Source: Cyclobacterium sp. SYSU L10401 (GTDB lineage: Bacteria; Bacteroidota; Bacteroidia; Cytophagales; Cyclobacteriaceae). From it: 64,000 nt of DNA. Positions 25,322 through 51,334 of this stretch are shown piece after piece (within the stretch, counting starts at the first letter, position 1; each line of letters starts with the position of its first letter). Location of the stretch: positions 48,112 to 112,111 of the forward strand of contig NZ_WOFO01000008.1 of assembly GCF_010993705.1 (NCBI RefSeq), read 5' to 3'. Position numbers and translations under genes: made by a program. The notes beneath the pieces are model-generated. The model was not told where the DNA came from and did no database searches. It saw nothing but the letters and a program-made list of their open reading frames with translations.

Positions 25322-25422
25322 ATGAAATCGACACGATTAAAATCATCATTAAACACACAGGGCAATGATTATTTTAATCGTCAAAGATTCCATCTGACCA
25401 TTAAAAATCAAATTATAAACAG
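25322..25422 (+). repeat. Leader element copy A (dispersed ~100-bp 5' leader)
   Basis: 101 bp, starting ATGAAATCGACACG and ending ATTATAAACAG, followed by ATGAAA. It contains a 16-bp inverted repeat (25335-25350 and 25364-25379; GATTAAAATCATCATT against AATGATTATTTTAATC, one mismatch) around a 13-base loop. Near-identical copies lie at 45689-45812 and 51235-51334. Here the element ends 16 bp before the SDR start codon. In this copy a 34-codon frame runs the full length, and its TGA overlaps the terminal ATG; the other two copies break that frame, so coding is doubtful. Confidence 0.9.
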
Positions 25423-25438
25423 ATGAAAACTTCTACCT

Positions 25439-26224
25439 ATGATTATTGACTTAACAGGCTACCATGCCGTAGTGGGCGGAGCCACCCGGGGATTGGGCCT
25501 GGCCATTGCCCGGCAACTGGCAAAAAGTGGGGCGACCATTACCCTTCTGGCCAGAAACAAGGAAAAGTTGGCAGCGGCCAGAGACTCCCTACCGGTACAG
25601 GCCGGACAAAAGCATCAATACCTGGAAGTTGATTTTTCAGATTTCAATTCCTTCAGGGATCGTACCAGCCAGTATTTTAAGGATAAAAAAGTGGACATCC
25701 TGGTCAACAATACCAATGGTCCCCAGGCGGGAACGGTGGAAGAAAAAAACCTGGAGGCCTATCAGGAAGCTTTTGACCTGCTTTTTAAAACCTACCATCA
25801 CCTCACTCACCTCCTGCTGGAAGGGATGAAAAAGCAGGGCTATGGAAGGATTTTAAATGTTTCTTCCGTGTCTGTTAAGGAGCCCATGCCCAACCTGGTC
25901 CTTTCAAACAGCATTCGGACGGCAGTAGTGAGCTGGGCCAAATCCCTGGCAACAGCAGTGACTCCATTTGGCTTGACTGTAAATTCCATCCTTACCGGGG
26001 CATTCGAAACGGAAAGGATCCGGGAGCTGACGGAAAAGCAGGTGCCAGGCAGTGGAAAATCCCTGGAAGAACTGATGGAAGCCAGAAAGGCAGCCATTCC
26101 CGCAGGCAGGTTTGGAAAACCTGAAGAATACGGGTATTTGCTTGCTTTTCTGGCCTCCCCACAAGCAGCCTATATCAATGGAGCCAGTATTCCCATAGAC
26201 GGAGGGGCATCCAGGGGCTTATGA
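25439..26224 (+). CDS. Short-chain dehydrogenase/reductase, FabG-like with altered active site
   Basis: 261 aa. The NAD(P) motif GGATRGLGLAIA is intact. The NNAG motif is changed to NNTNGPQAG, and the catalytic Tyr-x3-Lys region reads VLSNSIRTAVVSWAK, where Arg stands for Lys and no Tyr is present. It ends in SIPIDGGASRGL, a normal SDR tail. This pattern belongs, from memory, to a BKR-like SDR subgroup that lacks the standard tetrad; substrate unknown. Start ATG 25439 gives MIIDLTGYHAVVGG. An ATG at 25423 is out of frame. It is preceded by leader element A and converges with the cytochrome gene, overlapping 6 bp. Confidence 0.85.
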   Translation: MIIDLTGYHAVVGGATRGLGLAIARQLAKSGATITLLARNKEKLAAARDSLPVQAGQKHQYLEVDFSDFNSFRDRTSQYFKDKKVDILVNNTNGPQAGTVEEKNLEAYQEAFDLLFKTYHHLTHLLLEGMKKQGYGRILNVSSVSVKEPMPNLVLSNSIRTAVVSWAKSLATAVTPFGLTVNSILTGAFETERIRELTEKQVPGSGKSLEELMEARKAAIPAGRFGKPEEYGYLLAFLASPQAAYINGASIPIDGGASRGL

Positions 26225-27199
26225 ATGCTCACTGGCGATAAATTTCGTAACGGCGTTCTCTACCGGCTCCAGGCTTTGCAGGTAGTCGTAGATGGCTCCC
26301 AGGTCTTCCCGGCTCATGCCGGCATACATGGCCCAAGGCATGATGGTCTGCATTTCTCCGGGATTCAATTTCCTGATATGCTGGCTGTTTTCGTAGGCTT
26401 TGAATTGTTCAATAAATTGAGATTTGCTCCAGTTTTTTAGTCCTGTTTCATGAGGGGTAAGATTGGCGGAGCTCAGGACACTACCATCAGGAAACATAAA
26501 CTTCCGCCCTCCGGCAAGGGGCTCACCGGTGTAGGCTCCGTTTTCAAATTGGGTATGGCAGTCTGCACAGGCGGATGCAGTGGTAAGGTATTTGCCATAA
26601 GCGATGGCGTCCTCAGGAGAGGGTTTTTTCGATAATTCAGCTTTTACAGGCATGGTGCGCATGATCAGATTTACCGGAAAGTCTGCTTTGGATACCTGCT
26701 TTTCAGAGGGCTTGGGCTCCAGGCTGCGGATGTAGGCAATGACGGCTTCTATATCTTCTGCATCCATCTTGCCATAACTGGCATAAGGCATGACCGGAAA
26801 AATGGGATTTCCGTCTTTTTTGACACCTGTGGTAATCAGTCTAAACAACTCTCCATCAGTATAATCCCCTATACCTGCCGGGGTAATGTTGGGCGAGATA
26901 AATACACCCGGGAAGCCCATGCTATGGTCAAACCGTTCGCCTCCTTTGGCTTCCGTCCCGGGTATGGGGGGCGCACTAAACAAGCTGAAGTCCCTTTGGG
27001 AATGACAATCGATACAAAGCATGACATGATTGGCCAGGTACTTGCCCCGTTCAATTTTTTCCGGACTGACCGTCACCTTGAGATTTTCAGGTGCAGGTCC
27101 CACATCAGGCAAAGCTGTAGACACATAGACCAGGCCGCTAATCAGTAATAACACAATGAAGGATACTGAAATGAGGATAATTTTTACTAATCTGGACAT
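26219..27199 (-). CDS. Membrane-anchored diheme cytochrome c
   Basis: 326 aa. An N-terminal hydrophobic anchor (about 6-28) leads to two class I cytochrome c domains. Heme-binding CIDCH is at 62-66 and CADCH near residue 210. Likely axial Met residues are in FPVMPYASYGKMDAEDIEAV and MPWAMYAGMSREDLGAI. The domain pair resembles cytochrome subunits of membrane-bound dehydrogenases, which pass electrons to the respiratory chain. No dehydrogenase subunit is adjacent. The last codons overlap the convergent SDR gene by 6 bp. The 220 bp upstream (27200-27419) contains only A/T-rich DNA that I cannot assign. Confidence 0.9.
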   Translation of the reverse strand: MSRLVKIILISVSFIVLLLISGLVYVSTALPDVGPAPENLKVTVSPEKIERGKYLANHVMLCIDCHSQRDFSLFSAPPIPGTEAKGGERFDHSMGFPGVFISPNITPAGIGDYTDGELFRLITTGVKKDGNPIFPVMPYASYGKMDAEDIEAVIAYIRSLEPKPSEKQVSKADFPVNLIMRTMPVKAELSKKPSPEDAIAYGKYLTTASACADCHTQFENGAYTGEPLAGGRKFMFPDGSVLSSANLTPHETGLKNWSKSQFIEQFKAYENSQHIRKLNPGEMQTIMPWAMYAGMSREDLGAIYDYLQSLEPVENAVTKFIASEHS

Positions 27200-27419
27200 T
27201 TTACTGGGTTTTTTTGGGTATTGTATAATTTAACTTCATTCAGGCACAGCGCAATCGCCGTCATAATATTCAGTCCAATCAATATTGATTAAAAGACTGA
27301 AAATTCGAGATCAATGGAATTAAATATAGGTGGTGTTGTTTTCTAACGAATGATAAATTGAGAATAAATGTAATAAAAAAATTTATTATTTTTGAAAGTG
27401 ATCCCTATTTTTACAGCCT

Positions 27420-28427
27420 TCACTGCTGCAAAAACCTGATCATTTCAGCAATACCATTGAGCTCTTCTGTTCGATCCGCAAAAAAAAGACGGATACCGAA
27501 AGGCTGATCCCTTACCACAATTCTTTCAGGCCGGGTCAATTCAGGATTTTTTCTAAAAACATTCCTGATCCAATGGCTCAAATGAATCGGTCCCTCTATC
27601 TGAGGGAGATTTGGGGGGTCTTTAAGCCTGATTTTGCCCGATTCCGGGTCTATCTGCCACTTGTCGCCCGGCAACAGGCTTTGGATACCTCCCTGTATCA
27701 TGAGGTCCTCGGGACTTCCTTGCTGCAGGGCTTTGCCGGCTTCCATCAACCAAAGGGTATCTGCTGTTTCCATGGCCACTTCCAAATCATGGGTGACCAC
27801 CAGGATGGCCTTGCCGGCTTTTTTGGCCAGGTCCCGCAGTAAATACATGATTTCAAAGCGGTTAGTCAGGTCCAGGTGGGCGGTAGGTTCGTCCAGGATC
27901 AGGATGGGACTATCCTGGGCCAGGGCCCGGGCAATCAGTGCTGTCTGCCTTTGGCCATCACTGAGGGCAGCCAGTTTTTTACCGGCCAGCTGGGTGATTC
28001 TGGTAATGTCCATGACTCGTTTTACCACGGACCGATCCTGTGGACTGAGCTGTCCCCACCAACCGGTATGCGGCACCCTGCCTAAAGCCACCAGTTCATG
28101 GACGGTCATGGCACCGGCAGGGATCTTTTCTGTAAGCACCACAGCCACCTTTCTGGCGCGCTCCCTGTCGCTCAGCTGCCTCACCTCTTCATTTTCCAGA
28201 AAAATACTCCCTTTTAAGGGTGGGTGCTGGTGGAGGATGGCTTTTAGCAAGGTGGACTTACCGACCCCATTGGGTCCCATCAGGCAGGTAAGTTCCCCCC
28301 GATGCAGGTCAAAGGAAACACCGGAGGCCAGCAGATTAAGGCCTTGTGCAGAACGGTAACCCAATTCCAGCTCTTCGGCATGGATAGCGGGGAAATTGGC
28401 TGCAGTCATTTTATCTTTTCCATCCAT
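27420..28427 (-). CDS. btuD: ABC transporter ATP-binding protein, BtuD/FecE type
   Basis: 335 aa. Walker A GPNGVGKST, Q-loop region, signature LSDGQRQTALIARAL, Walker B PILILDEPTAHLD and the H-loop VVTHDLEVAM are all present in the first about 250 residues. A further ~80 residues follow (IHLSHWIRNVFRKNPEL..., RIVVRDQPFGIRLFFADR), longer than E. coli BtuD/FecE; this tail is unexplained. The gene is last in a minus-strand binding protein-permease-ATPase unit. Cobalamin is the likely substrate because the divergent partner operon has a B12 riboswitch and BtuB; a siderophore cannot be excluded. Alternative start MTAANFP at 28409. Confidence 0.85.
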   Translation of the reverse strand: MDGKDKMTAANFPAIHAEELELGYRSAQGLNLLASGVSFDLHRGELTCLMGPNGVGKSTLLKAILHQHPPLKGSIFLENEEVRQLSDRERARKVAVVLTEKIPAGAMTVHELVALGRVPHTGWWGQLSPQDRSVVKRVMDITRITQLAGKKLAALSDGQRQTALIARALAQDSPILILDEPTAHLDLTNRFEIMYLLRDLAKKAGKAILVVTHDLEVAMETADTLWLMEAGKALQQGSPEDLMIQGGIQSLLPGDKWQIDPESGKIRLKDPPNLPQIEGPIHLSHWIRNVFRKNPELTRPERIVVRDQPFGIRLFFADRTEELNGIAEMIRFLQQ

Positions 28428-28438
28428 CGCCAGTAAAA

Positions 28439-29467
28439 TTAAAACTCCTCGCTAAAATTCCTTCTCATGATCAGCCAGATGATGAGAGGAGCACCAAAAG
28501 CCGTGGTCACCGCATTGATAGGCAGGCTGGTGGCCATACCGGGCAACTGGCTGATGCTGTCACAAACCAGCAATACCAATATTCCCAAAAGGGCTGCTGC
28601 CGGGAAAAGCAAGGTATGGTTGTTGGTTTTGAACAACAACCTGGTCAAATGGGGAACTGCTATTCCAATAAATGCTATGGGACCACAAAAGGCTGTGATG
28701 CTTCCCGTTAAGATCCCTGTACTCACGATCATGGACCAACGCAATCGTTGAAAATTGATGCCCATGCTGACCGCATAGTTTTCTCCCAGAAGCATGGCAT
28801 TGTAGGCCTTAACAGAAGCCAGGGCAGGTACCAGCCCCAGCAGTACCGCTCCGGAAAGCAAGCCCAATTTCTCCCAACCGGTATTTCCCAAATTGCCCAT
28901 GGACCAGATGGTAAACATTTTTAATTCTTCGGCCGCACTGAAATAAGCCAGCAAAGTGATCAGGGAAGAGGCCGCACTGCCAAACATCAGGCCTACAATC
29001 AGTAAAGTCATGCTGTCCCGCACTTTCCATGCTGCCAGCCCCATCATCACCAGAACGGCGATGGAACCCAGGCTGGCTGCTATGATGGCCGACCAGTAAT
29101 TTCCGGATCCGGCCAGAAATTGCCAGCCAAATGCCGAACCTGCCATGGATAGCAGGGCCACCCCTAATCCGGCCCCTGAACTGATACCCAGCACATAGGG
29201 CCCGGCAAGGGGGTTTCTGAAGAAAGTTTGCATTTGCAAGCCACTGATGGTTAGCCCTATCCCGGCCAATATGGCCGTAAGGGATTTGGGAAGGCGGTAT
29301 TCCATGACGATGATTTCCCAACTGTCCGAAGGAAAGGGGATCCCTAAGAGTCTTTGCAGCAGGTGGTCCACCGGAATGGATACCGATCCCAGGCTCAGGT
29401 TGATCAGCCATAAAATCATGCAAAGTAGCAGGCTGAGCAGTAGCTTGTATGACTTGAGTTTATTCAT
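28439..29467 (-). CDS. btuC: FecCD-family ABC transporter permease (BtuC-like)
   Basis: 342 aa from ATG 29467 (MNKLKSYKLLLSLLLCMILW). The longer frame from 29494 lies inside the upstream gene and is less likely. About ten transmembrane helices are visible. Conserved FecCD segments include GIGLTISGLQMQTFFRNPLAGPYVLG (family signature, split here) and AFCGPIAFIGIAVPHLTRLL, the ATPase-contact loop region. The start overlaps the end of the binding-protein gene by 8 bp, giving translational coupling. It forms the inner-membrane channel for cobalamin or a related chelate. Confidence 0.88.
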   Translation of the reverse strand: MNKLKSYKLLLSLLLCMILWLINLSLGSVSIPVDHLLQRLLGIPFPSDSWEIIVMEYRLPKSLTAILAGIGLTISGLQMQTFFRNPLAGPYVLGISSGAGLGVALLSMAGSAFGWQFLAGSGNYWSAIIAASLGSIAVLVMMGLAAWKVRDSMTLLIVGLMFGSAASSLITLLAYFSAAEELKMFTIWSMGNLGNTGWEKLGLLSGAVLLGLVPALASVKAYNAMLLGENYAVSMGINFQRLRWSMIVSTGILTGSITAFCGPIAFIGIAVPHLTRLLFKTNNHTLLFPAAALLGILVLLVCDSISQLPGMATSLPINAVTTAFGAPLIIWLIMRRNFSEEF

Positions 29468-30614
29468 CCAATGGCTGGAAATATTGAAAGTCATGGGTCG
29501 CCGCCTTTGAGGGGTGCAGGATTTTGATCATGTCCAGCAGTACCCAGTCCGGCCGAAGGTAGCCCTCTTCAAAGTACATCAGCCCTCCGGTTTCCCCTTG
29601 CTTTAGTGTATAGGTATAAACCTGTTTATTTTTCAAAGCTGCAAAATTGCCGTATTTGGGATTTTCAGCCAGCATATGGTCCAGACTTCGAAAATCAGCA
29701 GCTCCAATCCAGTAATTCGCATCCCGTGCATTTTCCAACACGAATTCATAGTTCAGGGTCAGACTCCCGGTCCCATCCTGTTCATCAAAGAGGTAATGCC
29801 CTCCCGCATCCTGAATAATCCGGGCCGCCCAGCTGTCTTTGGCAGGAGCATACCAGACATCCTTATAAAGCGTTCCTGAAAGTACGGATGGTCGTTCCCC
29901 TGCCGGAATATCTCTGGTTTTGGCCAGGGCGGCCAGGTAATTTTGTTCAATTTGAGCAAAAACACTATCTGCCAGCGCCGTTTTGCCCAAAAGTACCCCG
30001 CTCAGTTTGATCCATTCGCTCCTGCCCAGGGGATGTTTTTCCAGGAACTCACCATTGACAATGACGGGAATATTTGCCGCCTGCAGGCGCTCCTCCAATT
30101 GGGCGGCTGAACCGAAGTCCGAAACCATGAGCCAATCGGGATCCAGGGAAACGATTTTTTCCAGATCAGGGGAGGCTCCCTTTCCCAGGTCCGCAATTTT
30201 CTTTCCGTCAATGCTTTCCCTGATTTCCGGGGAGGATACCAGGTCCAGATTGGGGAAGGCTACCAGGTGCTCTACGGCCTTCAGGTAGGTCAGGTGAGGG
30301 AGTTGTGGGGTAGCTGTAAGGATGACTTTCCGGCCACCTTCGGGGATGTATCCGTCGATTTCGCCGGCAAATGCCATGTTTTCCTTCCCCGATTTATGGA
30401 CCAGAAAGCGGCTTTTGTTTGGCCGGTTGGGTCCGATTTCCAACAGGTAAAAACCTGATCCCTTGTAGATGGCAAATCCCTCCGCATAAGCCATTGGGAT
30501 TTTTTCCAGGGAGGAGAGATCGGTTGCAGCCTGCTTTTCGTTACAGGCAGCAAACATTGCCCAGAGCAAGATAATGAAAGGGTTGAAAACGGATCCTGGT
30601 TTGAAAGGGGACAT
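29460..30614 (-). CDS. btuF: ABC transporter substrate-binding lipoprotein (BtuF-like)
   Basis: 384 aa from ATG 30614. The frame extends upstream to 30752, but only this start gives a signal peptide ending in a lipobox (LLWAMFAAC, lipid-modified Cys). The periplasmic-binding fold of the iron-siderophore/B12 class is shown by DLGKGASPDLEKIVSLDPDW followed by LMVSDFGSAAQLEERL and IPVIVNGEFLEKHPLGRSEW. It is first in the minus-strand binding protein-permease-ATPase operon. Its start lies about 120 bp from the divergent B12 riboswitch, which reads only in the plus direction, so control of this operon is not obvious. Confidence 0.85.
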   Translation of the reverse strand: MSPFKPGSVFNPFIILLWAMFAACNEKQAATDLSSLEKIPMAYAEGFAIYKGSGFYLLEIGPNRPNKSRFLVHKSGKENMAFAGEIDGYIPEGGRKVILTATPQLPHLTYLKAVEHLVAFPNLDLVSSPEIRESIDGKKIADLGKGASPDLEKIVSLDPDWLMVSDFGSAAQLEERLQAANIPVIVNGEFLEKHPLGRSEWIKLSGVLLGKTALADSVFAQIEQNYLAALAKTRDIPAGERPSVLSGTLYKDVWYAPAKDSWAARIIQDAGGHYLFDEQDGTGSLTLNYEFVLENARDANYWIGAADFRSLDHMLAENPKYGNFAALKNKQVYTYTLKQGETGGLMYFEEGYLRPDWVLLDMIKILHPSKAATHDFQYFQPLDE

Positions 30615-30734
30615 CTGTGACCTTAATTTGAATCCAAAGTAAACCATTGTGTTTCCCAAATCCAACACCTTATTTTTTTGCATAAATTTTTTGATTGGGG
30701 ATTTTACAGTATGTTTGTATCGAATTGTGGTTCC

Positions 30735-30910
30735 TGAACCTGTACCAGGCACTCAGGATTAATAGGGAATTCGGTGAGAATCCGGAACTGTCCCCGCAAC
30801 TGTAACCCCTGCCTCCCTTTTGTGGAGGAGCGTTTGTCCATCCTTTGCCATTGTCCCCGGAGAGGGGATGAGAAGGCGGATCAACGAAGGGAAGTCAGGA
30901 GACCTGCCAT
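30735..30910 (+). promoter_or_regulatory. Cobalamin (adenosylcobalamin-type) riboswitch
   Basis: The conserved core is easy to see: GGGAATTCGGTGAGAATCCG near 30765-30784, GGAACTGTCCCCGCAACTGT at 30784-30803, and GGAAGTCAGGAGACCTGCC at 30890-30908 (the B12-box region). A variable hairpin with GTCCCCGGAGAGGGGAT lies between. Ends are approximate. It lies about 185 bp upstream of the BtuB-like receptor, so that excess cobalamin should reduce expression of the receptor and the coupled BtuG-like lipoprotein. Confidence 0.95.
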
Positions 30911-31094
30911 TATTCTTTACATTCAAGGCTTTCGGGTGAAAGGCGGAGAAGAAGGGTTTTTTCCAATTGGATGGTCAGGTTTCTGCAGCGCTCAGGCTGG
31001 AGTGACTTTGCTTTAATCTTTGGAAGCAAGCCGTTTCTCTCTTTAATTTCCGATGCATGCCTCGAATAAATAAGACTTTATTATTTGGTTCAGG

Positions 31095-32975
31095 ATGCTA
31101 TACTACTTTGGGTTCGTATTTACTTTGTTTTCCGGAATTTCCCTGGCAGCGTCACCGGTAAAATTTTTGCAGGACACGGTAGATCTTGAGCCTGTGGAAA
31201 TTCGTGCCGAACAGCTGCAAAAATATGCCTACGGGCAGTGGGTCAGAACCCTGGACAAGGCGCAGCTGGCCCAAATGTCTGGAATGAGCCTGGGTGAGGC
31301 CTTACAGCAAAATACAGGTTTATTTGTCCGGCAATACGGCCCTGGCATGCTCGCTTCTGTCAGCATGAGGGGTACTTCAGCAGGTCATAATGCCCTTTTC
31401 TGGAATGGTTTGCCGGTAAATAGTCCCTCCCTCGGCCAAGCCGATTATTCGATCTTCTCTCTGTCCGGATTTGACCAGGTGTCCGTCCATTACGGTAGTT
31501 CAGGTGCCCTCTATGGCACAGATGCTATCGGTGGAGCCATCCACCTGAGCAACAGTCCTTCATTCGAAAAAGGCCATGAAACCACCATCAATACCCGTCT
31601 GGGGAGTTTTGGCCGCTGGGATCAGGAGCTGAGCCACAGGTATGGGGGAGATGCTTTTTCCTTCAAAACAAGGGTTTACAGAAATTTTGCAGCCAACCGC
31701 TTTCCCTACAGGGACTGGGCCAGCGCAGGCACGCCCGAAAGGGTGCAGGACCATGCCGAAGTCACCCAAACGGGCTGGGCACAGGATCTGGCAGTCAAAC
31801 TGAACCCGGAGCAGTCCATAGAAGCCTCTTTCTGGCTCAATGAGATCAATAGGGAGATCCAACCCCTGCTCGGCTCTCCGGAGCGGGATCAGCAGCTGGA
31901 TTGGAATATCAGGGGAGTGGTGGATTATTACAGGCGGGGAGAAAAAGCCAGCTGGAACATGAAAGCCGGTTTGGTAAGGGATTTTATGAAGTTCAACCAG
32001 GAGGAAAACCAAACCCTTCTGGCCCTGCTGGGTGCAGAAGTGGATTGGGAGCATTCCGCCAAATGGCAGAGCCGGACCGGGATCCGTCTGACCCATATCG
32101 ATGGAAAGCTGGCCAGCTACCGCCAGGAGGAACAACGGTTGGAATTGTATCAGGCCACAAATTACAAGCCCCTGCCCCAGCTGGGTTTTTCCTTGCAGGT
32201 TCGGCAGTTGATCCATGATGGCGAACGGGTTCCCTTTACTCCAGGTCTGGGTGCCTCCTGGGGCTTTTTTGAAAATCAGAACCATGAATGGGAATTGACA
32301 GCAAACCTGTCCCGGAGCTTTAAGGTGCCCACTTTAAACGACCGGTATTGGGTACCCAGTGGCAATCCGGACCTGCTACCCGAGCAAAGCTGGAGCCGGG
32401 AAGCAGGCCTGAACCATTCGCTGAGCCACTCTGGCATTCATATCAAAAACAGGCTTGCCTATTTTCACATGGCGGTGGACCAATGGATCATCTGGCTGCC
32501 AAAGGGTACGATCTGGACTCCTGAAAATGTCCGCAAGGTAGTCAATCAGGGACTGGAATATTTCTTTGAAAGCGAATGGGAAAGAGGAAATTGGAAATGG
32601 GGCCTGGATCTGGAGTATGCGTTTACACGCCCTGTCATCCAATATGATGAGCAGGTACAAAATATAGGCAAACGTTTGCCCTATGTGCCTGAGCACAAGG
32701 TTCAGCTGCAATTGGATGCCGGAAATGGTCCCCTTTCGCTTTTTATACGGGGACAGCAAACCGGTGAAAGGTATGTAACTACGGACAACCGCAGCTCCCT
32801 GCCGGCATTTACCTTATGGGGAGCTGGGGTACACTACGATTTCAAGTTTTCTACCTGGTTAATGGGGAATATGGGTCTTGATGCTCACAATATTTTTGAC
32901 CAGGCCTATCAGATTTTGCGTTTAAGGCCCATGCCGGGCCGGAATTTTCAATTTAATATAAACCTAGTTATATGA
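31095..32975 (+). CDS. btuB: TonB-dependent outer-membrane cobalamin receptor, BtuB-like
   Basis: 626 aa. A signal peptide (FTLFSGISLAAS) is followed by a TonB-box-like start (DTVDLEPVEIRA). The plug domain contains VSMRGTSAGHNALFWNGLPV and VSVHYGSSGALYGTDAIGGAI, typical of BtuB/vitamin B12 receptors. The remainder is a 22-strand-like barrel with aromatic-rich ends, closing with NFQFNINLVI. No N-terminal carboxypeptidase-like extension is present, unlike SusC proteins. The B12 riboswitch upstream supports cobalamin as the substrate. The stop overlaps the next start by 4 bp (ATGA). Confidence 0.93.
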   Translation: MLYYFGFVFTLFSGISLAASPVKFLQDTVDLEPVEIRAEQLQKYAYGQWVRTLDKAQLAQMSGMSLGEALQQNTGLFVRQYGPGMLASVSMRGTSAGHNALFWNGLPVNSPSLGQADYSIFSLSGFDQVSVHYGSSGALYGTDAIGGAIHLSNSPSFEKGHETTINTRLGSFGRWDQELSHRYGGDAFSFKTRVYRNFAANRFPYRDWASAGTPERVQDHAEVTQTGWAQDLAVKLNPEQSIEASFWLNEINREIQPLLGSPERDQQLDWNIRGVVDYYRRGEKASWNMKAGLVRDFMKFNQEENQTLLALLGAEVDWEHSAKWQSRTGIRLTHIDGKLASYRQEEQRLELYQATNYKPLPQLGFSLQVRQLIHDGERVPFTPGLGASWGFFENQNHEWELTANLSRSFKVPTLNDRYWVPSGNPDLLPEQSWSREAGLNHSLSHSGIHIKNRLAYFHMAVDQWIIWLPKGTIWTPENVRKVVNQGLEYFFESEWERGNWKWGLDLEYAFTRPVIQYDEQVQNIGKRLPYVPEHKVQLQLDAGNGPLSLFIRGQQTGERYVTTDNRSSLPAFTLWGAGVHYDFKFSTWLMGNMGLDAHNIFDQAYQILRLRPMPGRNFQFNINLVI

Positions 32976-34018: not shown

Positions 34019-34055
34019 AATTCATAGGCTGATGTGGTGATGTGATGATGTCTCG

Positions 34056-42740: not shown

Positions 42741-42741
42741 A

Positions 42742-43959: not shown

Positions 43960-43960
43960 G

Positions 43961-44587
43961 ATGAGACCATTCAAGGTACCTGACATAGCACAGCATCTTC
44001 TCGGGGGATTCACCTGGCACAAGGAAAGAAACCACCAATCCATATACCTGACTTTTGATGATGGTCCGGTTTCGGGAGTCACCGATTTTGTTTTGAATGA
44101 ACTGGGCCGCAGGAACATGAAGGCTACGTTTTTTATGGTAGGCAGTAACGTACAAAAATCCGGCAGCCTGGCCCTGGAGGTTTGCAAGGCAGGGCATGGC
44201 ATAGGAAACCATACCTACCATCACCTCAATGGCGCAAAAACGGCGGAGCACAGCTACCTGGAGGATATCGAAAAGTGCCAGCAGGAGATCATGGGAAAAA
44301 CAGGTGTCAATACCCGCTTATTCCGGCCGCCTTATGGCCGTTTGACTTGTTCCCAAAAGAGGAGCATTCAATCCCAGCACGAGATCGTATTGTGGGAGCT
44401 CATTTCCTGGGATTTCCGGAAGGAAATGTCACCAGGCAGGTCCCTGCAACAGCTGAAGCGGAAGACAACCAATGGTTCTATTGTCCTGTTTCATGACCAA
44501 AAGAAAAGTGAGGGTTTTCTGAGAGCCATGTTGCCGGACTATCTGGATTTCCTGGCAGGGGAAGGATATGCTACCCAACCACTGTAA
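43961..44587 (+). CDS. Polysaccharide deacetylase (NodB/CE4 family)
   Basis: 208 aa. CE4 motifs: MT1 YLTFDDGPVSG, MT2 GIGNHTYHH (metal His residues), MT3 RLFRPPYGRLT, and MT5-like IVLFHDQKKS. No obvious signal peptide is visible, so it may act in the cytoplasm or be membrane-associated through its neighbours. It removes N- or O-acetyl groups from a sugar polymer or glycolipid. Starts 1 bp after the PP2C stop and overlaps the next glycosyltransferase start by 20 bp. Confidence 0.9.
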   Translation: MRPFKVPDIAQHLLGGFTWHKERNHQSIYLTFDDGPVSGVTDFVLNELGRRNMKATFFMVGSNVQKSGSLALEVCKAGHGIGNHTYHHLNGAKTAEHSYLEDIEKCQQEIMGKTGVNTRLFRPPYGRLTCSQKRSIQSQHEIVLWELISWDFRKEMSPGRSLQQLKRKTTNGSIVLFHDQKKSEGFLRAMLPDYLDFLAGEGYATQPL

Positions 44588-45692
44588 GCTGATGTTGGCC
44601 ACTATCGCAATGGGTATCCTGGTTTTGGTTGGCATTCAATATTTTATATTGTGGTGGCTGATCAGCAATAACTTTAAAAAACATGAGGGGGGTACGGCTG
44701 CATTGCCAGTGGTAAATGTACTTCTGCCTTGCCGCAATGAAGCCCATAACCTGCCGGCCTGTTTACAGTCGCTTGAAAACCTGAATTACCCCGGGGATAG
44801 GATCCGTTTTTATGTGGCAGATGACCACAGTGAAGATCAAACCGGGACCATGCTGGCCCAATGGGTATCCGCTGGAAAAAACAGGCAGCTGGTGCAGCTG
44901 GACCAAAAGCCCGGGGCGCAGGAAAATGGCAAAGCGGTAGCTCTTGCTGCCATGGTGCTATCGGTAAAGGAAGGCCTCCTGTTATTTACAGATGCAGATT
45001 GCGTGGTTCCTTCCGGATGGGCTGAAAAAATGGCGAGGGCTTATCAGGAGGAGTTTGGCATGCTTACCGGCATCACCATGATTTCCGGGAAGACGATTTT
45101 CGATCAAATGCAGGCCATGGATTGGTGGCTGACCCTGGGAAAAGTGAAGGCGGTGTCTGATCTGGGGTATTCACTTACGGCCATGGGCAACAACATGCTG
45201 ATCGGGCGGAATGCCTACCAGATAGCGGGAGGGTTTTCTGCCGTAAAGGAGCAGGTAACGGAGGATCTGGCGCTTTCCAAAATTATGTTTCAAAAAGGGT
45301 ACAGGCCGGCCCATCTGGTGAATAAGGAAGTTTTGGTCAGGACCCGGCCGGAAAAAAACTTTACTTCCCTGATGGAGCAGCGGAAAAGATGGGCCAGAGG
45401 CGCTTTTTTGCTCCCCTGGTACTGGCAATTGCTTTTGGGGCTTCAGGTGGCTTTTTATTTGACACTGCTTGTGGGCCTGGTCCATTCTTTTTGGTTGGCA
45501 GCAGGTATTTGGGGAGTTAAAATTTGCTTTCAATCCTTATTCATTAGCACTTTTGCAGGCAAAACGGAAACTAAAATTGGTCTTTTGCCATTATTAGGAT
45601 TTGAAATTTACAATTGGCTGGTTAGCTGGTCTACCGTATTGTATTATTTCTGGCCATCAGGTATCAAATGGAAAAACCGAACGTACCAATGA
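44568..45692 (+). CDS. Family 2 glycosyltransferase, membrane-bound
   Basis: 374 aa from ATG 44568; ATG 44592 (MLATIAMGILVL) is an equally good start directly at the membrane helix. GT-A motifs: VADDHSEDQTG, FTDADCVVPSGW and the acceptor motif EDLALSK with QRKRWARGAF. Three hydrophobic segments at the C-terminus. Related to the other glycosyltransferase of this cluster in length and order, suggesting two sequential transfers flanking deacetylation. The stop TGA at 45690-45692 overlaps the first ATG of leader element B by the ATGA pattern. Confidence 0.88.
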   Translation: MLPNHCKLMLATIAMGILVLVGIQYFILWWLISNNFKKHEGGTAALPVVNVLLPCRNEAHNLPACLQSLENLNYPGDRIRFYVADDHSEDQTGTMLAQWVSAGKNRQLVQLDQKPGAQENGKAVALAAMVLSVKEGLLLFTDADCVVPSGWAEKMARAYQEEFGMLTGITMISGKTIFDQMQAMDWWLTLGKVKAVSDLGYSLTAMGNNMLIGRNAYQIAGGFSAVKEQVTEDLALSKIMFQKGYRPAHLVNKEVLVRTRPEKNFTSLMEQRKRWARGAFLLPWYWQLLLGLQVAFYLTLLVGLVHSFWLAAGIWGVKICFQSLFISTFAGKTETKIGLLPLLGFEIYNWLVSWSTVLYYFWPSGIKWKNRTYQ

Positions 45693-45812
45693 AATCGACA
45701 CGATTAAAATCATCATTAAACACACAGGGCAATGATTATTTTAATCGTCGAAGATTCTCCCGATTTAGTATCGGGACAGGCATCTGACCATTAAAAATCA
45801 AATTATAAACAG
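45689..45812 (+). repeat. Leader element copy B (dispersed ~100-bp 5' leader) with 23-bp insertion
   Basis: Same element as at 25322, with one substitution and a 23-bp insertion at about 45756-45778 that itself contains a small hairpin (TCCCGAT-TTAGT-ATCGGGA). The inverted-repeat arms lie at 45702-45717 and 45731-45746. Its tail ATTATAAACAG runs directly into the TatD start codon. The insertion shifts the reading frame seen in copy A, so a peptide is not conserved. Confidence 0.9.
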
Positions 45813-46595
45813 ATGAAATTCATAGAGACTCACGCCCATATATACAGTAAGAAATTTGATCAGGACCGGAATCAGGTTATCCAAAATGCCATTGAAGCAG
45901 GTATTGAGAAGATTTTTATGCCCAATATTGACCTGGAATCCATTGAGGGGATGCTGGCCGTAGAAAGGGATTTTCCCGGCGTTTGTTATCCCATGCTCGG
46001 GCTGCATCCCTGCGATGTAGGTGAAGACTTTGAAGCGCAGCTTGCGCAGATAGAGAGCTGGTGGAACAAACATGCTTTTTGTGCAGTTGGGGAAACCGGT
46101 ATTGACCTTTACTGGGACAAGACCTACTTCGAGCAGCAGCAGGAATCGCTGAGAAGACACATCACCTGGGCAAAGGAAAAGCGGCTGCCCCTGATCCTGC
46201 ATTGCAGGGAATCCATGGATGAAACCATAGCATTGGTCCAATCCATGAATGATGAGCGGCTGACGGGAATTTTCCACTGTTTTTCAGGAAGCCTGGAGCA
46301 GGCGAGAAGCATCACGGAGATGGGTTTCTATCTGGGTATTGGAGGCACGCTTACTTATAAGAACAGTGGGGTAGGGGAGGTCATTGCGGAGATGGGGCTG
46401 GGTCGGCTGGTTTTAGAAACCGATAGTCCCTACCTGGCTCCGGTTCCCTTCCGGGGAAAGCGCAATTCACCCGAATATATTCCTCATATTGCAGAAAAAA
46501 TGGCTCATTTCACCGGTAAGTCTCTGGAGGAGGTAGCTGAAGTAACGAGAAGCAACGCCCTGCAGGTGTTCAAACAACATGCTCATGAATTATAA
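45813..46595 (+). CDS. TatD-family metal-dependent hydrolase/deoxyribonuclease
   Basis: 260 aa. Metal-binding motifs of the amidohydrolase barrel: FIETHAHIY, VGETGIDLYW, LILHCRES, GIFHCFSGS and LVLETDSPYLAP. The family includes 3'-5' exodeoxyribonucleases involved in DNA repair. The first codon is the terminal ATG of leader element B, so the ribosome entry region for this gene is supplied by that element. The following asparaginase gene overlaps its end by 17 bp. Confidence 0.93.
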   Translation: MKFIETHAHIYSKKFDQDRNQVIQNAIEAGIEKIFMPNIDLESIEGMLAVERDFPGVCYPMLGLHPCDVGEDFEAQLAQIESWWNKHAFCAVGETGIDLYWDKTYFEQQQESLRRHITWAKEKRLPLILHCRESMDETIALVQSMNDERLTGIFHCFSGSLEQARSITEMGFYLGIGGTLTYKNSGVGEVIAEMGLGRLVLETDSPYLAPVPFRGKRNSPEYIPHIAEKMAHFTGKSLEEVAEVTRSNALQVFKQHAHEL

Positions 46596-47661
46596 AATTG
46601 TCAGGTTAAATACAGCAGCCAAACAGGAAATTGAGCATGCGGTGCTGATCATTTACACAGGGGGTACGTTGGGGATGGCCTATGATGAGCAAGGTGCGCT
46701 GGTGCCTTTTAATTTCGGCAAGATTCTGGAAAAAATCCCCAACCTCAATAACCTTAACATAAGCATTACGGTCATTTCCTTTCCTGAGCCGATAGATTCC
46801 TCCAATATCAACCTGCAGCACTGGGTGGATATGGCTTATATCATCTATGAAAACTACGACACCTATGATGGTTTTGTGGTGCTGCATGGGACAGACACCA
46901 TGGCCTACAGTGCTTCCATGCTCAGCTTTATGCTCAGGGGACTGAATAAACCGGTTATTTTTACCGGGGCACAACTCCCCATCAGTGCCATGCGCTCGGA
47001 CGCCAGAGAGAACCTGATGACCTCTCTGGAAATTGCCATTTCCAAGGTGAATGGCAAACCGGTAGTACCTGAGGTCTGCATTTTTTTCAACCACATGCTG
47101 TTGCGGGGAAACCGGGCCAAGAAGGTACAGAGTGTACATTTTGATGCTTTTGAGTCTGAAAATTATCCGGCCCTGGCAGAATCAGGTATTGTCATCGATT
47201 ACAATTATGCTTCCATACGACCGTATGAAGAGGGAAAAAAGCTCAAATACCTGAATAAATTGGATAACCATGTGATGGTATTGAAGTTATTTCCCGGAAT
47301 CACCAAAAATGTGGTACAGCATTGTTTGCAAATAAAGGGATTGAAAGGGATGGTACTGGAAACTTACGGTTCTGGTAACAGCCCCAGTGAGGACTGGTTT
47401 ATTCAAGCCATGGAAGCGGCGGTTGAAAAGGGGATGTTGATCCTGAATGTTTCGCAGTGCAATGGTGGAAGAGTGATTCAGGGCAGGTACCAGACCAGCA
47501 AAGACCTCAAAAGGGTGGGGGTTTTGAGCGGAGGGGACATTACTACTGAGGCGGCCGTCACCAAAATGATGTTTATTCTGGCCAATGAGACAGATGAAAC
47601 CGAAATAAAGCGGAAGATGATGATGCCCCTGGCAGGAGAAATGTCGGTTTTGAGCCAGTGA
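46579..47661 (+). CDS. ansA: Type I (cytoplasmic) L-asparaginase
   Basis: 360 aa. The two catalytic threonine regions are visible: VLIIYTGGTLGM and FVVLHGTDTMAYSASMLSFM. GAQLPISAMRSDARENLM is another conserved block. No signal peptide is visible, which suits a cytoplasmic type I enzyme. It hydrolyses asparagine to aspartate and ammonia. The start overlaps tatD by 17 bp; an ATG six bases later (46585) is also usable. Somewhat longer than E. coli AnsA. Confidence 0.92.
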   Translation: MLMNYKIVRLNTAAKQEIEHAVLIIYTGGTLGMAYDEQGALVPFNFGKILEKIPNLNNLNISITVISFPEPIDSSNINLQHWVDMAYIIYENYDTYDGFVVLHGTDTMAYSASMLSFMLRGLNKPVIFTGAQLPISAMRSDARENLMTSLEIAISKVNGKPVVPEVCIFFNHMLLRGNRAKKVQSVHFDAFESENYPALAESGIVIDYNYASIRPYEEGKKLKYLNKLDNHVMVLKLFPGITKNVVQHCLQIKGLKGMVLETYGSGNSPSEDWFIQAMEAAVEKGMLILNVSQCNGGRVIQGRYQTSKDLKRVGVLSGGDITTEAAVTKMMFILANETDETEIKRKMMMPLAGEMSVLSQ

Positions 47662-47823
47662 ATCCTTTCCGATCAAGGCTTTGACCATCAATCCCCTAGC
47701 TTTCATAGCCAAAAAGAATACTTTTAAACCATGTTTTTTTTCAATAATAAAGCGGGGAATTATTTGCATGGGCTGATTTTTATAATTTTATTTGTCGCTG
47801 CAAGAATGTTAAAAAAAACAATT

Positions 47824-47911
47824 AGAGAGGTGTCCGAGCGGTCGAAGGAGCACGCCTGGAAAGCGTGTATACCCCTAAAGGGTATCGAGGGTTCGAATCC
47901 CTTCCTCTCTA
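47824..47911 (+). tRNA. tRNA-Ser (anticodon GGA)
   Basis: Acceptor AGAGAGG (47824-47830) pairs with CCTCTCT (47904-47910). The D-arm has TCCGAGCGGTCGAAGGA. Anticodon stem CACGC/GCGTG surrounds CTGGAAA with anticodon GGA. A long variable arm (TACCCCTAAAGGGTA), as expected for tRNA-Ser, and a T-arm GAGGGTTCGAATCCCTT follow. 3' CCA is not encoded. The flanks 47662-47823 and 47912-48210 hold no gene; the downstream part is A/T-rich and presumably contains the exbB promoter. Confidence 0.97.
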
Positions 47912-48210
47912 CAGATTTCAGTAAGAAGCAATGGAAGATTGCTTTTATTAAATGGGATAAAGATAGTAATTACAATAAAAAGTTTGTTTTTATCCACTCA
48001 AATAGTGCGATTTCCATTTAAGTAAATTAAATTACATGTTCCATTCCATTAAAATACCTTGAAATCCTGTTTGATCAGCCAGGCTGGGAAGGATTTCTCA
48101 GAAATTATAATGGAATCATTTGCAATTTGAGTTGAAAAAATTATAACTTTAAAAACTTAATTCGAATTTAGAAACCGTTCAACCTTTAAAAGTCTATTAA
48201 AAACTACATT

Positions 48211-49032
48211 ATGAAAAAGTTAATCGCTTTGTTCATGCTTTTCGGAATTTTATTCTCTCCGATGATCACAAAAGCACAAGAAGAAACAGAAGAAGCAGAA
48301 GCTGACACCACTGAAGAGGCTGCTGCCCCAGAACAAACAGCTCCGGAACCAGATCCAACACCAGCCATGACTGATGATGAAATTGTTGCCGAGGAGCAAT
48401 CTTTTCATCAGGTTATAAAAGACAAATTCATTGAAGGAGATCCTACTTATATGACTCCTGTTTTGTTGTGTTTGATTTTAGGCTTAGCCGTTGCACTGGA
48501 AAGAATCATTACCCTGAATCTTTCTACTACCAATACCAAAAAGCTTTTGGCTAAGGTAGAGAGTGCATTGGAAGAAGGAGGAATTGAAGCTGCAAAGGAT
48601 GTAACCAAAAGCACCAGAGGACCAGTAGCTTCTATCTTTACACAAGGTCTGATGCGGTACTCTGAAGGTATCGACATGGTGGAGAAATCCATTATTGCCT
48701 ACGGATCAGTAGAAATGGGCCGCCTGGAAAAAGGTTTGGTATGGATTTCCCTGTTTATCTCCCTGGCTCCTATGTTGGGTTTCATGGGTACGGTAATTGG
48801 TATGATTGGTGCCTTTGACTCGATTGAAGCAGCTGGAGATATTTCTCCTTCATTGGTTGCTGGTGGTATTAAGATTGCCCTTTTGACTACGGTTGCCGGT
48901 TTGATCGTTGCCATTATCCTTCAGTTGTTTTACAACTATTGCGTAGCGAAAATCGATTCTATCGTAAACGATATGGAAGATGCGTCTATCAGCTTAGTAG
49001 ACATTTTGGTAAGGCATAAATTGACCAGGTAA
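48211..49032 (+). CDS. exbB: MotA/TolQ/ExbB proton-channel family protein
   Basis: 273 aa. An N-terminal signal (MKKLIALFMLFGILFSPMIT) is followed by an acidic, Glu/Pro/Ala-rich stretch (about 24-66). The first transmembrane helix is near 85-105 (VLLCLILGLAVALERIITL). The conserved pair of helices near the end contains SLAPMLGFMGTVIGMIGAFD and VAGGIKIALLTTVAGLIVAI. It forms the pentameric proton channel that energises TonB or Tol-type outer-membrane transport. It is first in a four-gene operon with two ExbD proteins. Confidence 0.93.
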   Translation: MKKLIALFMLFGILFSPMITKAQEETEEAEADTTEEAAAPEQTAPEPDPTPAMTDDEIVAEEQSFHQVIKDKFIEGDPTYMTPVLLCLILGLAVALERIITLNLSTTNTKKLLAKVESALEEGGIEAAKDVTKSTRGPVASIFTQGLMRYSEGIDMVEKSIIAYGSVEMGRLEKGLVWISLFISLAPMLGFMGTVIGMIGAFDSIEAAGDISPSLVAGGIKIALLTTVAGLIVAIILQLFYNYCVAKIDSIVNDMEDASISLVDILVRHKLTR

Positions 49033-49091
49033 TACTGGTCATTTTGTTTTTACTGTTAAAATGATTTATTTCACTTAAGAATTAAGATAAA

Positions 49092-49421
49092 ATGGATACT
49101 ACTGATATATTTTTATATGCAGGGTACTTGCTGATCATCGTTGGAGCGATATTTGCCATACTTATGCCTTTGATCAAGTCTTTTGGTGACCCCAAGAGTT
49201 TATTGAAAACCGTTATAGGTGTGGTGGTGATCGGTGCCTTGTTTGGCATCGCCTATTCCTCAGCAAGCGGTGAAGTTGCAGCCAAATACGCTGCAGACCC
49301 TTTTAATATTACAACAGAGGGTGCAAAGATGGTAGGTGGCGTACTGATTACAGTATATGCACTTGCTATACTTGCAATCTTTGGGATTGTAGTTACAGAA
49401 ATCACTAAAATAGTTAAATAA
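49092..49421 (+). CDS. Small three-helix membrane protein between exbB and exbD
   Basis: 109 aa, three predicted helices (LYAGYLLIIVGAIFAILM, VIGVVVIGALFGIAYSSA, GGVLITVYALAILAIFGIVV). No known motif recognised. It lies 59 bp after exbB and 2 bp before the first exbD, a position kept in Bacteroidetes as far as I recall. It may be a structural or regulatory partner of the ExbB-ExbD motor. Confidence 0.75.
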   Translation: MDTTDIFLYAGYLLIIVGAIFAILMPLIKSFGDPKSLLKTVIGVVVIGALFGIAYSSASGEVAAKYAADPFNITTEGAKMVGGVLITVYALAILAIFGIVVTEITKIVK

Positions 49422-49423
49422 TT

Positions 49424-50059
49424 ATGGGCAAGAGAGGTAGAATGAGTCAGGAGGTAAATGCAGGGTCGATGGCGGACATCGCCTTTTTGCTTCTTATCTT
49501 CTTTCTCGTAACCACGACAATCGCTTCGGATAAGGGTATCATGAATATCCTTCCTCCCAAGCAGGATCCGAACCAACCACCTCCTGAGGTGGAGTTGAAT
49601 GAGCGGAATATTTTCAATATTCTGATTAATGCCAATGATGACCTATTGATTGAAGGAGAGTTTCGTAACAGTTCTGACGGTCTTTCCGAGGAGATCAAGT
49701 CTTTCGTTATGAATTTTGGCAACCCCGATGAAGATGCGGTGGAATTGTTTAATAGCCTTCCCCCTTCCCTAAGGGGCTTGGCCAATCAAGATCCGGAATC
49801 CTCAGATCATCCCATGTCCGGTGGTGCTGTAATTTCAATCAAAACCAATAGGGGTACTGGTTATGAAAAGTATTTGGAGGTTTTGGATGAAGTAAAAAAA
49901 GCCTATTTCGAAATCTACGGTGAGCGGGTTGGGCTATCTGGTGAAGAATACCGGGCACTTACCGGTCAATCTGCTGCTGAAAGGGAGCTGATGGACAGGG
50001 GTAAGGAGAATCTTCCCATGGCCATATCTATTGCGGAACCTGATAAAATCGGAAGCTAA
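49424..50059 (+). CDS. exbD: ExbD/TolR biopolymer transport protein, long form
   Basis: 211 aa. N-terminal transmembrane anchor (MADIAFLLLIFFLVTTTIAS) with the conserved Asp in SMADIAFLL, which carries protons in ExbD/TolR. The periplasmic part contains an extra ~100-residue middle region compared with E. coli ExbD (141 aa), and a C-terminal IKTNRGTGYEKYLEVLDEV typical of ExbD. Two bases after the small membrane protein and two bases before the second exbD. Confidence 0.9.
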   Translation: MGKRGRMSQEVNAGSMADIAFLLLIFFLVTTTIASDKGIMNILPPKQDPNQPPPEVELNERNIFNILINANDDLLIEGEFRNSSDGLSEEIKSFVMNFGNPDEDAVELFNSLPPSLRGLANQDPESSDHPMSGGAVISIKTNRGTGYEKYLEVLDEVKKAYFEIYGERVGLSGEEYRALTGQSAAERELMDRGKENLPMAISIAEPDKIGS

Positions 50060-50061
50060 TT

Positions 50062-50526
50062 ATGTCAAAGTTTAAAAAGAAAACCAAAGCGGAAACCAAT
50101 ATTCCTACCTCTGCCTTGCCGGATATCATTTTCATGTTGTTGTTCTTCTTTATGGTTACAACAGTATTGAGAGAGCAGGAAATATTGGTTGAGCAGAAGA
50201 TTCCTCAGGCTACCCAACTTCAGAAAATTCAAAAGAAAACCTTGATTTCTTATCTGTATGTGGGGCAACCAAAGAATACTTCTTTGTATGGTACGGAGCC
50301 AAGAATTCAGGCAAACGATGTGCTGATCAATACCTCGGATATTGTACTCTGGGTAAATCAGGAAAAAGATAACCTCTCTGAAGCTGAAAGAGACCAGATC
50401 TGGATTTCTCTCAAGGCTGATAGGGATGTGAAGATGGGCCCCATTAGTGATATTCAATTTGAATTAAGAGAAGCAGATGCCAGAAAACTGATGTATGCCT
50501 CTGTAGGAAGAGTTGAAAATAATTGA
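50062..50526 (+). CDS. exbD: ExbD/TolR biopolymer transport protein, second copy
   Basis: 154 aa. N-terminal helix with conserved Asp: ALPDIIFMLLFFFMVTTVL. The periplasmic domain (LISYLYVGQPKNTSLYG, FELREADARKLMYASVGR) has an ExbD/TolR-like layout, without the long insert of the first copy. Paired with the preceding exbD; Bacteroidetes often use two different ExbD proteins in one motor. Followed by an intrinsic terminator. Confidence 0.9.
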   Translation: MSKFKKKTKAETNIPTSALPDIIFMLLFFFMVTTVLREQEILVEQKIPQATQLQKIQKKTLISYLYVGQPKNTSLYGTEPRIQANDVLINTSDIVLWVNQEKDNLSEAERDQIWISLKADRDVKMGPISDIQFELREADARKLMYASVGRVENN

Positions 50527-50555
50527 TCCACATCTAACCTGACATGATCATTTAC

Positions 50556-50583
50556 AGCTGTCCGTATGGGCAGCTTTTTTTTT
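50556..50583 (+). terminator. Intrinsic terminator of the exbB-exbD operon
   Basis: Stem AGCTG-CC/GG-CAGCT (50556-50575, loop GTAT-like) followed by about nine T residues. Confidence 0.88.
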
Positions 50584-50634
50584 GCCTTAATGGCTAATGT
50601 GATAAAAATTACTTTTTCTGCTGCTTTCTTCCCC

Positions 50635-50642
50635 TACTTTTG
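50635..50642 (+). promoter_or_regulatory. Candidate -7 promoter box for the rhodanese gene
   Basis: TACTTTTG fits TAnnTTTG and lies 26 bp before the start codon at 50668, just after the exbD terminator. Confidence 0.5.
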
Positions 50643-50667
50643 TTGTGTCACTTAACAAAAGAAGAAA

Positions 50668-50994
50668 ATGTTTAATCTATTTCATAAACAAACAAAGCAG
50701 TATTCAGATCTCAATGCTGAAGAGTTTCACCAGGGTATGCAGGATAAGGATGCCGTTGTCATCGATGTGAGAACGACAGGTGAATTTAACGGAGGAAAGT
50801 TACCCAAAGCCAGGAACCTGGATATGATGTCACCTAACTTCAAACAGCAAATTCAAAACCTGCCCAAAGACAAAGCCTACTACCTGTATTGCAGGAGCGG
50901 AAACAGAAGTGGTCATGCCTGTGCGATGATGGCAGATTTAGGGTTTAAAGAAGTTTATAACCTGGCAGGTGGAATCATTTCCTGGCCCTACTGA
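50668..50994 (+). CDS. Single-domain rhodanese-like sulfurtransferase
   Basis: 108 aa. The domain reads VVIDVRTTGEFNGGKLPKAR in its first half and has an active-site Cys in the loop YYLYCRSGNRSGHACAMM. The Cys loop of six residues (CRSGNR) is typical of rhodaneses using sulfur, not of Cdc25-like enzymes. It may transfer sulfane sulfur in the adjacent persulfide module. Its own promoter and upstream terminator make it a monocistronic unit or the start of a longer run. Confidence 0.9.
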   Translation: MFNLFHKQTKQYSDLNAEEFHQGMQDKDAVVIDVRTTGEFNGGKLPKARNLDMMSPNFKQQIQNLPKDKAYYLYCRSGNRSGHACAMMADLGFKEVYNLAGGIISWPY

Positions 50995-51059
50995 TGGTCT
51001 TATGTGACCAAAGTCCTATAAATCAGGGATAAAATGGTTTTATTTTGTGTTAATTATTA

Positions 51060-51200
51060 CCAACGATTAAAGGCCATGAAGTCAGGCATTAGGGAGGCAG
51101 TACAAAGGGATGCCCTGCCAGTCCCGTTGATCCTGAGGGCATAAGTAGGCTCTCAGGAATTCAGTCAGGGAAAGGCTATGCATCCTTTGGGTGCACGACA
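51060..51200 (+). other. Unassigned structured intergenic region
   Basis: Three adjacent possible hairpins: AGGCAT/ATGCCT-like arms at 51084-51114 with an alternative GGCAG/CTGCC pairing (51096-51100/51115-51119); CCTGAG/CTCAGG at 51132-51137/51152-51157; and GCATCC-TTT-GGGTGC at 51180-51194 (pairing in RNA with one G-U). They lie in a 340-bp gene-free stretch (50995-51334) upstream of leader element C and the MBL/rhodanese gene. The arrangement resembles a structured leader RNA, but I match it to no known riboswitch. Confidence 0.4.
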
Positions 51201-51234
51201 ATGTATGACCAAAAAAACAAAAAATTATAAGCAA

Positions 51235-51334
51235 ATGAAATCGACACGATTAAAATCATCATTAAACACACAGGGCAATGATTATTTTAATCGTCAAAGA
51301 TTCCATCTGACCAATAAAAAAAAATTATAAACAG
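51235..51334 (+). repeat. Leader element copy C (dispersed ~100-bp 5' leader), flanked by 20-bp repeats
   Basis: 100 bp, identical to copy A for the first 79 bases; inverted-repeat arms at 51248-51263 and 51277-51292. It ends directly at the start codon of the MBL/rhodanese gene. AAAATTATAAGCAAATGAAA (51221-51240) and AAAATTATAAACAGATGAAA (51321-51340) lie exactly 100 bp apart and agree in 18 of 20 bases, so this copy looks inserted by recombination at a start-codon region. Confidence 0.9.

Follow-up and report, generated by a model that had tools for sequence, protein, structure and literature searches.

Why should three nearly identical elements of about 100 nucleotides lie directly in front of genes of unrelated function? 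The question is raised by a stretch of 64,000 nucleotides from Cyclobacterium sp. SYSU L10401 (contig NZ_WOFO01000008.1, positions 48,112 to 112,111; this whole stretch is called the window below), where a sequence-only reading had described such elements at 25322-25422 (copy A, 101 nt), 45689-45812 (copy B, 124 nt) and 51235-51334 (copy C, 100 nt), adjoining an SDR, a TatD DNase and an MBL/rhodanese gene, respectively. We found all three at these positions, on the plus strand like the other window features given here. The explanation that in our judgement accounts best for them, and which we consider probable, is that they are non-autonomous mobile elements, about 85-125 bp long, that insert after the sequence ATGAA(A) and carry a replacement start codon with them.

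Copies, range and empty sites

Absence from the rest of the genome, an outcome that the sequence-only reading had allowed for, is not what we observed, as the element is abundant in the 5.9-Mb genome of the host, which comprises 22 contigs. Its left end, ATGAAATCGA, occurs in 112 copies versus 6 for the reversed control, copy A finds strong matches (E <= 2e-23) in 40 or more places on 13 contigs, a lower bound with 40 of the 100 first-look candidates scored, and a search for the exact hairpin pattern gave 27 occurrences versus 0 in the reversed control; because of these strong places and this pattern count, the repeats of copy A are not due to chance. Among the host stretches examined there were 105 distinct occurrences of ATGAAATCGA, 73 of which continue into AGATTC, with at least one of those 73 (C9:357871) resembling plain coding sequence.

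The loci of the window can be compared with those of relatives. At tatD, the upstream gene runs directly into the tatD start in seven relatives (G001, G004, G006, G007, G008, G010, G011), that start reading ATGAAA in six of them and ATGACA in G008, while in the window ATGAAATCGA...AAACAG is interposed between the two. The TGA of the upstream open reading frame (ORF) overlaps the ATGA of the start, and this stop is preserved by the left ATGA of the element: in copy B the left ATGAA (45689-45693) holds the stop of the glycosyltransferase ORF (45690-45692). Other element types occupy the same spot in G005, G009, G003 and G002, two of them in tandem in G009, and since different types stand at one spot, repeated gain is indicated. 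The MBL start lacks the element type of the window in 11 of 11 relatives, ten of which are free of any element there, and in G003 the position is taken by another short stretch with ATGAAA at either end. Upstream of the SDR gene, ATGAAATCG was absent within about 250 nt in all 10 relatives with contiguous DNA, the eleventh, G009, ending at a contig end. When copies in relatives were compared with the host, the flanks matched an element-bearing host locus in 5 of 20 cases and did not in 15, a 21st copy having no recognisable left end. The empty sites in relatives argue for mobility and against old constraint, one of the two causes that the sequence-only reading had offered for the near-identity of the copies. 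The repeats are almost certainly a mobile family, and the element belongs to the class of small non-autonomous mobile repeats.

Of 12 genomes of the genus, 11 contain matches and four have only 0 to 3. In the Cyclobacteriaceae, a family of aquatic Bacteroidota, the pattern ATGAAATCGAN{35,65}AGATTC was found in 77 of 196 genomes, 14 of them with at least 10 matches and the richest with 189 (101+88); since the reversed control itself produced between 0 and 2 matches per strand, one or two matches in a genome may be due to chance. Among the 80 named loci listed, 73 are in Algoriphagus, Cyclobacterium, Lunatibacter, Lunatimonas, Pleomorphovibrio, Aquiflexum and Pararhodonellum, all Cyclobacteriaceae, and the other 7 are contigs of metagenome-assembled genomes (MAGs), two of which (L222 and L260) resemble chance matches. 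The stricter pattern ATGAAATCGAN{35,65}AGATTCCATNTG was present in 4 of 395 genomes of the class, all four inside the family, and in 0 of 386 genomes of the class outside it; no viral contig matched it, phage, plasmid and E. coli record collections not having been searched. Three MAG contigs, L224 (Aureispira), L232 (Saprospiraceae) and L272 (Cytophagales), carry element-like stretches with the same ends and a different hairpin sequence, which suggests some wider spread; horizontal spread or a binning error may account for them. In Rfam, the only matches at gathering level in the window were a cobalamin riboswitch and a tRNA, none of them at the elements, and the stretch of copy A gave only sub-threshold matches, the best one outside the element. 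The riboswitch (99.7 bits) lies at 30711-30925, upstream of a 626-aa ORF at 31095.

Position at start codons and origin of the ATG

We scored an end as a start when its ATG begins an ORF of 60 codons or more whose frame stays open for no more than 60 codons further upstream, and took as scorable those ends which have the canonical right end (CANATGAA), no further element directly after them and no nearby locus end; this left out 6 of 73 host and 11 of 109 named-genome cases for want of a canonical right end, 11 and 25 for a following element, and 0 and 5 close to a locus end. The 3' end of the element coincides with the start codon of an ORF of at least 60 aa at 42 of 56 scorable host ends and 49 of 68 in the named-genome loci, versus 52 of 517 and 149 of 1077, respectively, for other ATGAA on the same strands. 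The difference also holds against intergenic non-start ATGAA (42:13 versus 52:75, p = 1e-5, in the host; 49:17 versus 149:135, p = 0.0014, in the named genomes), and by crude ORF calling an ORF encloses just 3 of 124 ends versus 1183 of 1594 control ATGAA. Together with the empty sites, these counts support the view of the sequence-only reading that the element may be mobile and targeted to start codons; copies lying mostly away from gene starts, which would have spoken against it, were not what we saw.

The elements are flanked by ATGAAA on both sides. The left pentamer is ATGAA in 179 of 199 copies, a fixed bounding sequence unlike a target-site duplication of varying sequence, and since 124 of 129 ends, versus 111 of 201 control starts, continue with A as the sixth base, the target is nearer to ATGAAA; for one of the five exceptions the orthologous copy in G007 does have A. 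ATGAA is very probably the target, which refines the earlier proposal in that the element would be aimed at a sequence, ATGAA(A). Because ATGAAA, encoding Met-Lys, is a usual gene beginning and insertions inside genes would be lost, surviving copies would be found mainly at start codons and in the sense orientation. Targeting of ATGAA(A) combined with the loss of harmful insertions may account for most of the start-codon bias; the element may also prefer true starts. In addition, 57 of 122 non-tandem copies have a C immediately 5' of the left ATGAA, versus 54 of 201 control starts, perhaps reflecting a longer target.

Which side supplies the ATG can be judged from insertions into one gene, encoding a RAYT-type transposase. 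Seven loci without an element at the site (L374-L377, L382, L394, L395) read CAGGAAATGCCC, and three occupied ones read CAGGAA-ATCGAGC...CAGATGAA-ATGCCC (L378, L396) or have the right end ...CCCATGAA-ATGCCC (L366). The left side thus keeps AGGAA and the right side reads ATGAA, which argues that the right ATG came from the element, with the cut after GAA. At a second site in this gene (CACATGAA), three loci have CAGATTAA on the right, which is not a copy of the target and which may have been produced by mutation. From this gene it appears quite probable that the element itself brings the ATG; it seems to carry its own ATG instead of stopping before that of the gene, as had been supposed. In G001 the CAGGAA site is occupied in two copies of the RAYT gene and in one internally deleted derivative; it is likewise occupied in three further derivatives (L067, L068 and L078) and in G045 loci, and the CACATGAA site in loci of G045 and G147. 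The RAYT-type gene was repeatedly seen with start-codon elements at its N-terminus (L378, L396, L366, L067, L068, L078, L087). The internally deleted derivatives have lost the body of the gene from the element up to the last codons, and the host locus L391 (C12:574704-574880) is a deletion remnant without an element, its upstream flank being fused to the C-terminal part at ACACATGAA|AACCATGC.

The genes that follow the elements have unrelated functions, as the three in the window had indicated. The 92 downstream proteins match 110 Pfam families at E <= 1e-5, the largest group among the 25 families listed, SusD-like, having 4 members. LspA signal peptidase and iPGM exceeded their NCBIfam cut-offs, a fragment of argininosuccinate synthase fell short of its cut-off, the scan having covered no more than 300 residues, and UMP kinase PyrH, which also exceeded its cut-off, is outside the 92 since its element ends in TCTTATGAA. 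Several genes of this group are, we assume, generally essential, and therefore the element must permit translation. About 0.3 kb beyond another start-codon element, group II intron domains were detected at gathering level (L206 3068-3365, host C12 near its end).

Anatomy and folding

From 5' to 3' the element consists of the left ATGAA(A), ATCGA, a variable hairpin (P2), the core GATTCCATNTG, an A-rich stretch and CANATGAA, the core being interrupted by a further hairpin in some copies. In copy A, the left ATGAA (25322-25326), which we read as the retained target, is followed by the element ATCGA...CAGATGAA at 25327-25427, the right ATGAA being part of the element in our model. Its P2 (25335-25379) has arms at 25335-25350 and 25364-25379, and CATCTG in the core GATTCCATCTG (25386-25396) pairs with CAGATG at 25420-25425; the ATG of copy A itself (25423) opens 8 codons only, and the SDR gene (25439-26224) starts 16 nt 3' of it. 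Copy B (element ATCGA...CAGATGAA at 45694-45817, P2 at 45702-45746) differs from copy A by one substitution and a 23-base insertion, in which an extra hairpin, TCCCGATTTAGTATCGGGA (45758-45776), splits the core, and its right-end ATG is that of the TatD gene (45813-46595). In copy C, the left ATGAA (51235-51239) precedes the element ATCGA...CAGATGAA (51240-51339) with P2 at 51248-51292 and the core GATTCCATCTG at 51299-51309; it differs from copy A by one deleted base and two substitutions, all in the tail, and its right-end ATG is that of the MBL/rhodanese gene (51335-52756). The differences described for B and C by the sequence-only reading, and the distances to the three genes, agree with these comparisons, save that B also has the substitution. 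The inverted repeat likewise has the 16-nt arms and the 13-nt loop reported; its arms are not perfect, with 15 of 16 positions matching.

Several features go beyond what had been noticed, namely the ATGAAA on both sides, further element types, head-to-tail tiling and a probably decayed stretch before copy C. A second type in the host is built as ATGAAATCGAGCATGACG...CGTCACACA...GGGATGATTAT...GCGAGATTC, and forms with extra hairpins also occur. The next element follows directly after 11 of 67 right ends in the host and 25 of 98 in the named genomes. Upstream of copy C, the stretch 51076-51234, which starts with ATGAAGTCAGG and ends with ATGACC...AATTATAAGCAA, is by its resemblance probably a decayed element in tandem with C. 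No terminal inverted repeats were visible, the ends ATCGA... and ...CANATGAA not being inverted copies of each other.

When folded as single-stranded DNA, all three window copies form both P2 and the CATCTG/CAGATG pairing, with z scores of -4.2, -5.9 and -5.0, and four elements from other organisms gave -4.0, -1.7, -1.7 and -1.5. The right-end pairing covaries, as the inner and the terminal N are Watson-Crick partners in 189 of 217 distinct elements (C-G 89, G-C 79, A-T 21; G-T or T-G 4 among the rest) versus a mean of 84.7 and a maximum of 109 in 10,000 shuffles that ignore kinship between elements; a smaller set assembled before had shown 133 of 153, 12 elements being excluded because the inner motif was missing. 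The left stem shows double changes as well, most copies having ATGAAAT-C...G-ATTCCAT and a few ATGAAAT-GCCC...GGGC-ATTCCAT or -ACCC...GGGT-, and its position 8 is C-G in 196 of the 217, G-C in 5, A-T in 2 and other in 14. The CAT of the core is complementary to the left ATG as well as to the right one, but can engage just one of them at a time.

Mode of movement and rival explanations

We propose that the element would insert directly 3' of its 5-6-base target, leaving the old ATGAA upstream and offering its own ATG as the new start, so that the protein would be unchanged. Because the left-kept target, the target-like right end and the covarying pairings at both joints recall the guide logic of IS200/IS605, we infer that a folded single strand may move, its core pairing, as guide sequences do, both with the target and with the right end of the element, and that the enzyme would be supplied in trans; we advance this mode of movement tentatively, with somewhat more doubt than confidence. 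By a further interpretation, to which we give slightly less than an even chance, the element would represent a new class, a transposable translation-start region in which a single-strand fold with one 11-nt core recognises both the target ATGAA and its own right end, and which supplies a leader, a start codon and an AUG-covering hairpin and thereby does little harm even on essential genes. Mobile elements usually avoid or break genes, and targeting start codons and rebuilding them would be a different life in a compact genome. If the pairing of core and target is real, an altered core should shift the target. For annotation it would mean that, in element-rich genomes, dozens of genes owe their leader and start codon to a mobile element, which may affect their translation.

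The enzyme was looked for among two groups. The Y1 transposase domain (PF01797) had 89 matches in 21 genomes, every genome being represented, and no autonomous form with a Y1 gene was seen: 4 of the 50 Y1 loci scanned (L341, L348, L366, L373) held ATGAAATCGA, one of them inside the gene. In a tree of 30 of the 89 matches (59 remaining outside it), no Y1 clade was common to element-rich genomes and missing from element-poor ones. Two host PF01797 genes, L088 (C13:701430) and L089 (C15:5047), were rejected as mobilisers, each being embedded in several copies of its own distinct short repeat. The search for RAYT-type homologues gave 8 matches in the element-poor G001, which has almost no other elements, none in G011, a C-terminal fragment only in the host, and one weak match in G042 despite 189 element matches; RAYT numbers do not track element numbers and so do not fit RAYT and element as an autonomous form. 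The enzyme may act in trans, be of another class, or be lost.

Several observations weigh against an element that moves in this way and brings its own start codon. No enzyme was found, and neither a Y1 clade nor RAYT number tracks element number, recombinases not having been searched. Of the scorable ends, 33 of 124 do not fall at the beginning of an ORF with 60 or more aa; the right-end pairing is broken in 28 of the 217 elements, 11 times as C-C, against a shuffle control blind to relatedness; and z was only -1.5 to -1.7 in three of the four folds from other organisms. The case for an ATG of the element's own comes from related copies of one gene, and the right end at the second site in that gene reads ATTAA. 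Finally, for single sites, the empty state in relatives could in principle be a precise loss.

One rival explanation is a site-specific element that duplicates its target, either a miniature inverted-repeat transposable element mobilised by a conventional transposase or a tyrosine-recombinase cassette with ATGAA(A) as crossover core. The element would then comprise only ATCGA...CAN, and the ATG at its right would be the original one of the gene. ATGAA on both sides of nearly all copies, the head-to-tail arrays, which recall cassette arrays, and the lack of a Y1 enzyme that tracks the elements speak for such duplication, which we nevertheless regard as unlikely, since the insertion after AGGAA in the transposase gene has ATGAA and not AGGAA at its right and terminal inverted repeats are not visible. 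Another rival, an RNA leader with a regulatory role that mobility has distributed and function has preserved, would use the CATNTG/CANATG hairpin to cover the new AUG, the core pairing with the upstream or the downstream AUG as a translation switch. The covarying pairings do take in the start codon, and element-borne leaders in the host are 62% A versus 42% A in the 20 nt preceding the elements, a weak comparison in which the 'native' set (30% A) includes spurious ORFs; but the genes have no common function, the same genes lack the element in related genomes, G-T pairs are rare at the covarying position and no Rfam family matches, so that we hold this explanation to be quite improbable. An RNA-leader role is compatible with mobility, and because of the unrelated genes and the rare wobble pairs we favour mobile DNA as the main story. 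It is more improbable still, to the point of being nearly negligible, that a translated upstream ORF (MKS...) couples translation to that of the gene: the frame of copy A does reach a TGA overlapping the right ATG, as do those of 14 of 77 leading, terminal copies, but in 55 of the 77 the stop lies within the element, and the lengths of the elements are distributed over the three frames (19, 33, 25), so that stop positions and frames contradict it as a general explanation.

Relation to known systems

In the searches made, no described family matched the combination of start-codon targeting and apparent start-codon replacement. Insertion at start codons was not found in the portions consulted of a literature that included PMC6006769, PMC3733652 and PMC10969869 and mostly lacked subscription papers, in keeping with the failure of the sequence-only reading to recognise a named family. 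Like the REP/REPIN repeats, which are mobilised by RAYT (TnpA-REP) HUH transposases, the present elements are short, form hairpins, are non-autonomous and number from tens to hundreds per genome; unlike them, they sit at start codons and end in one, and no Y1 or RAYT clade tracks them. The passages of PMC6006769 available to us, which do not mention start codons, describe for TnpA-Y1 subclass 2.6 of Bacteroidetes 'atypical secondary structures' copied elsewhere in the genome, and for subclass 2.4 repeat insertions inside the transposase gene, a likeness to the insertions seen here inside the RAYT-type gene. Prokaryotic miniature inverted-repeat transposable elements are likewise short and non-autonomous with many near-identical copies, whereas the elements studied here have no visible terminal inverted repeats, are directional and use a fixed target at gene starts. 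The term 'start codon' does not occur in a review of those elements (PMC10969869).

Unlike integron cassettes, the copies are spread over 13 contigs and not gathered on one platform. Rickettsia palindromic elements lie inside ORFs, in frame; they too are selfish repeats tolerated by genes, but only 3 of 124 of the present ends fall inside an ORF. The IS200/IS605 elements transpose as single strands, with guide sequences 5' of each subterminal hairpin that pair with the cleavage sites. The present elements resemble them in the short target kept at the left, the target-like right end, the hairpins and the guide-like pairing with both joints, and differ from them in having no internal transposase and in using a single core, 3' of the left hairpin, to serve both ends.

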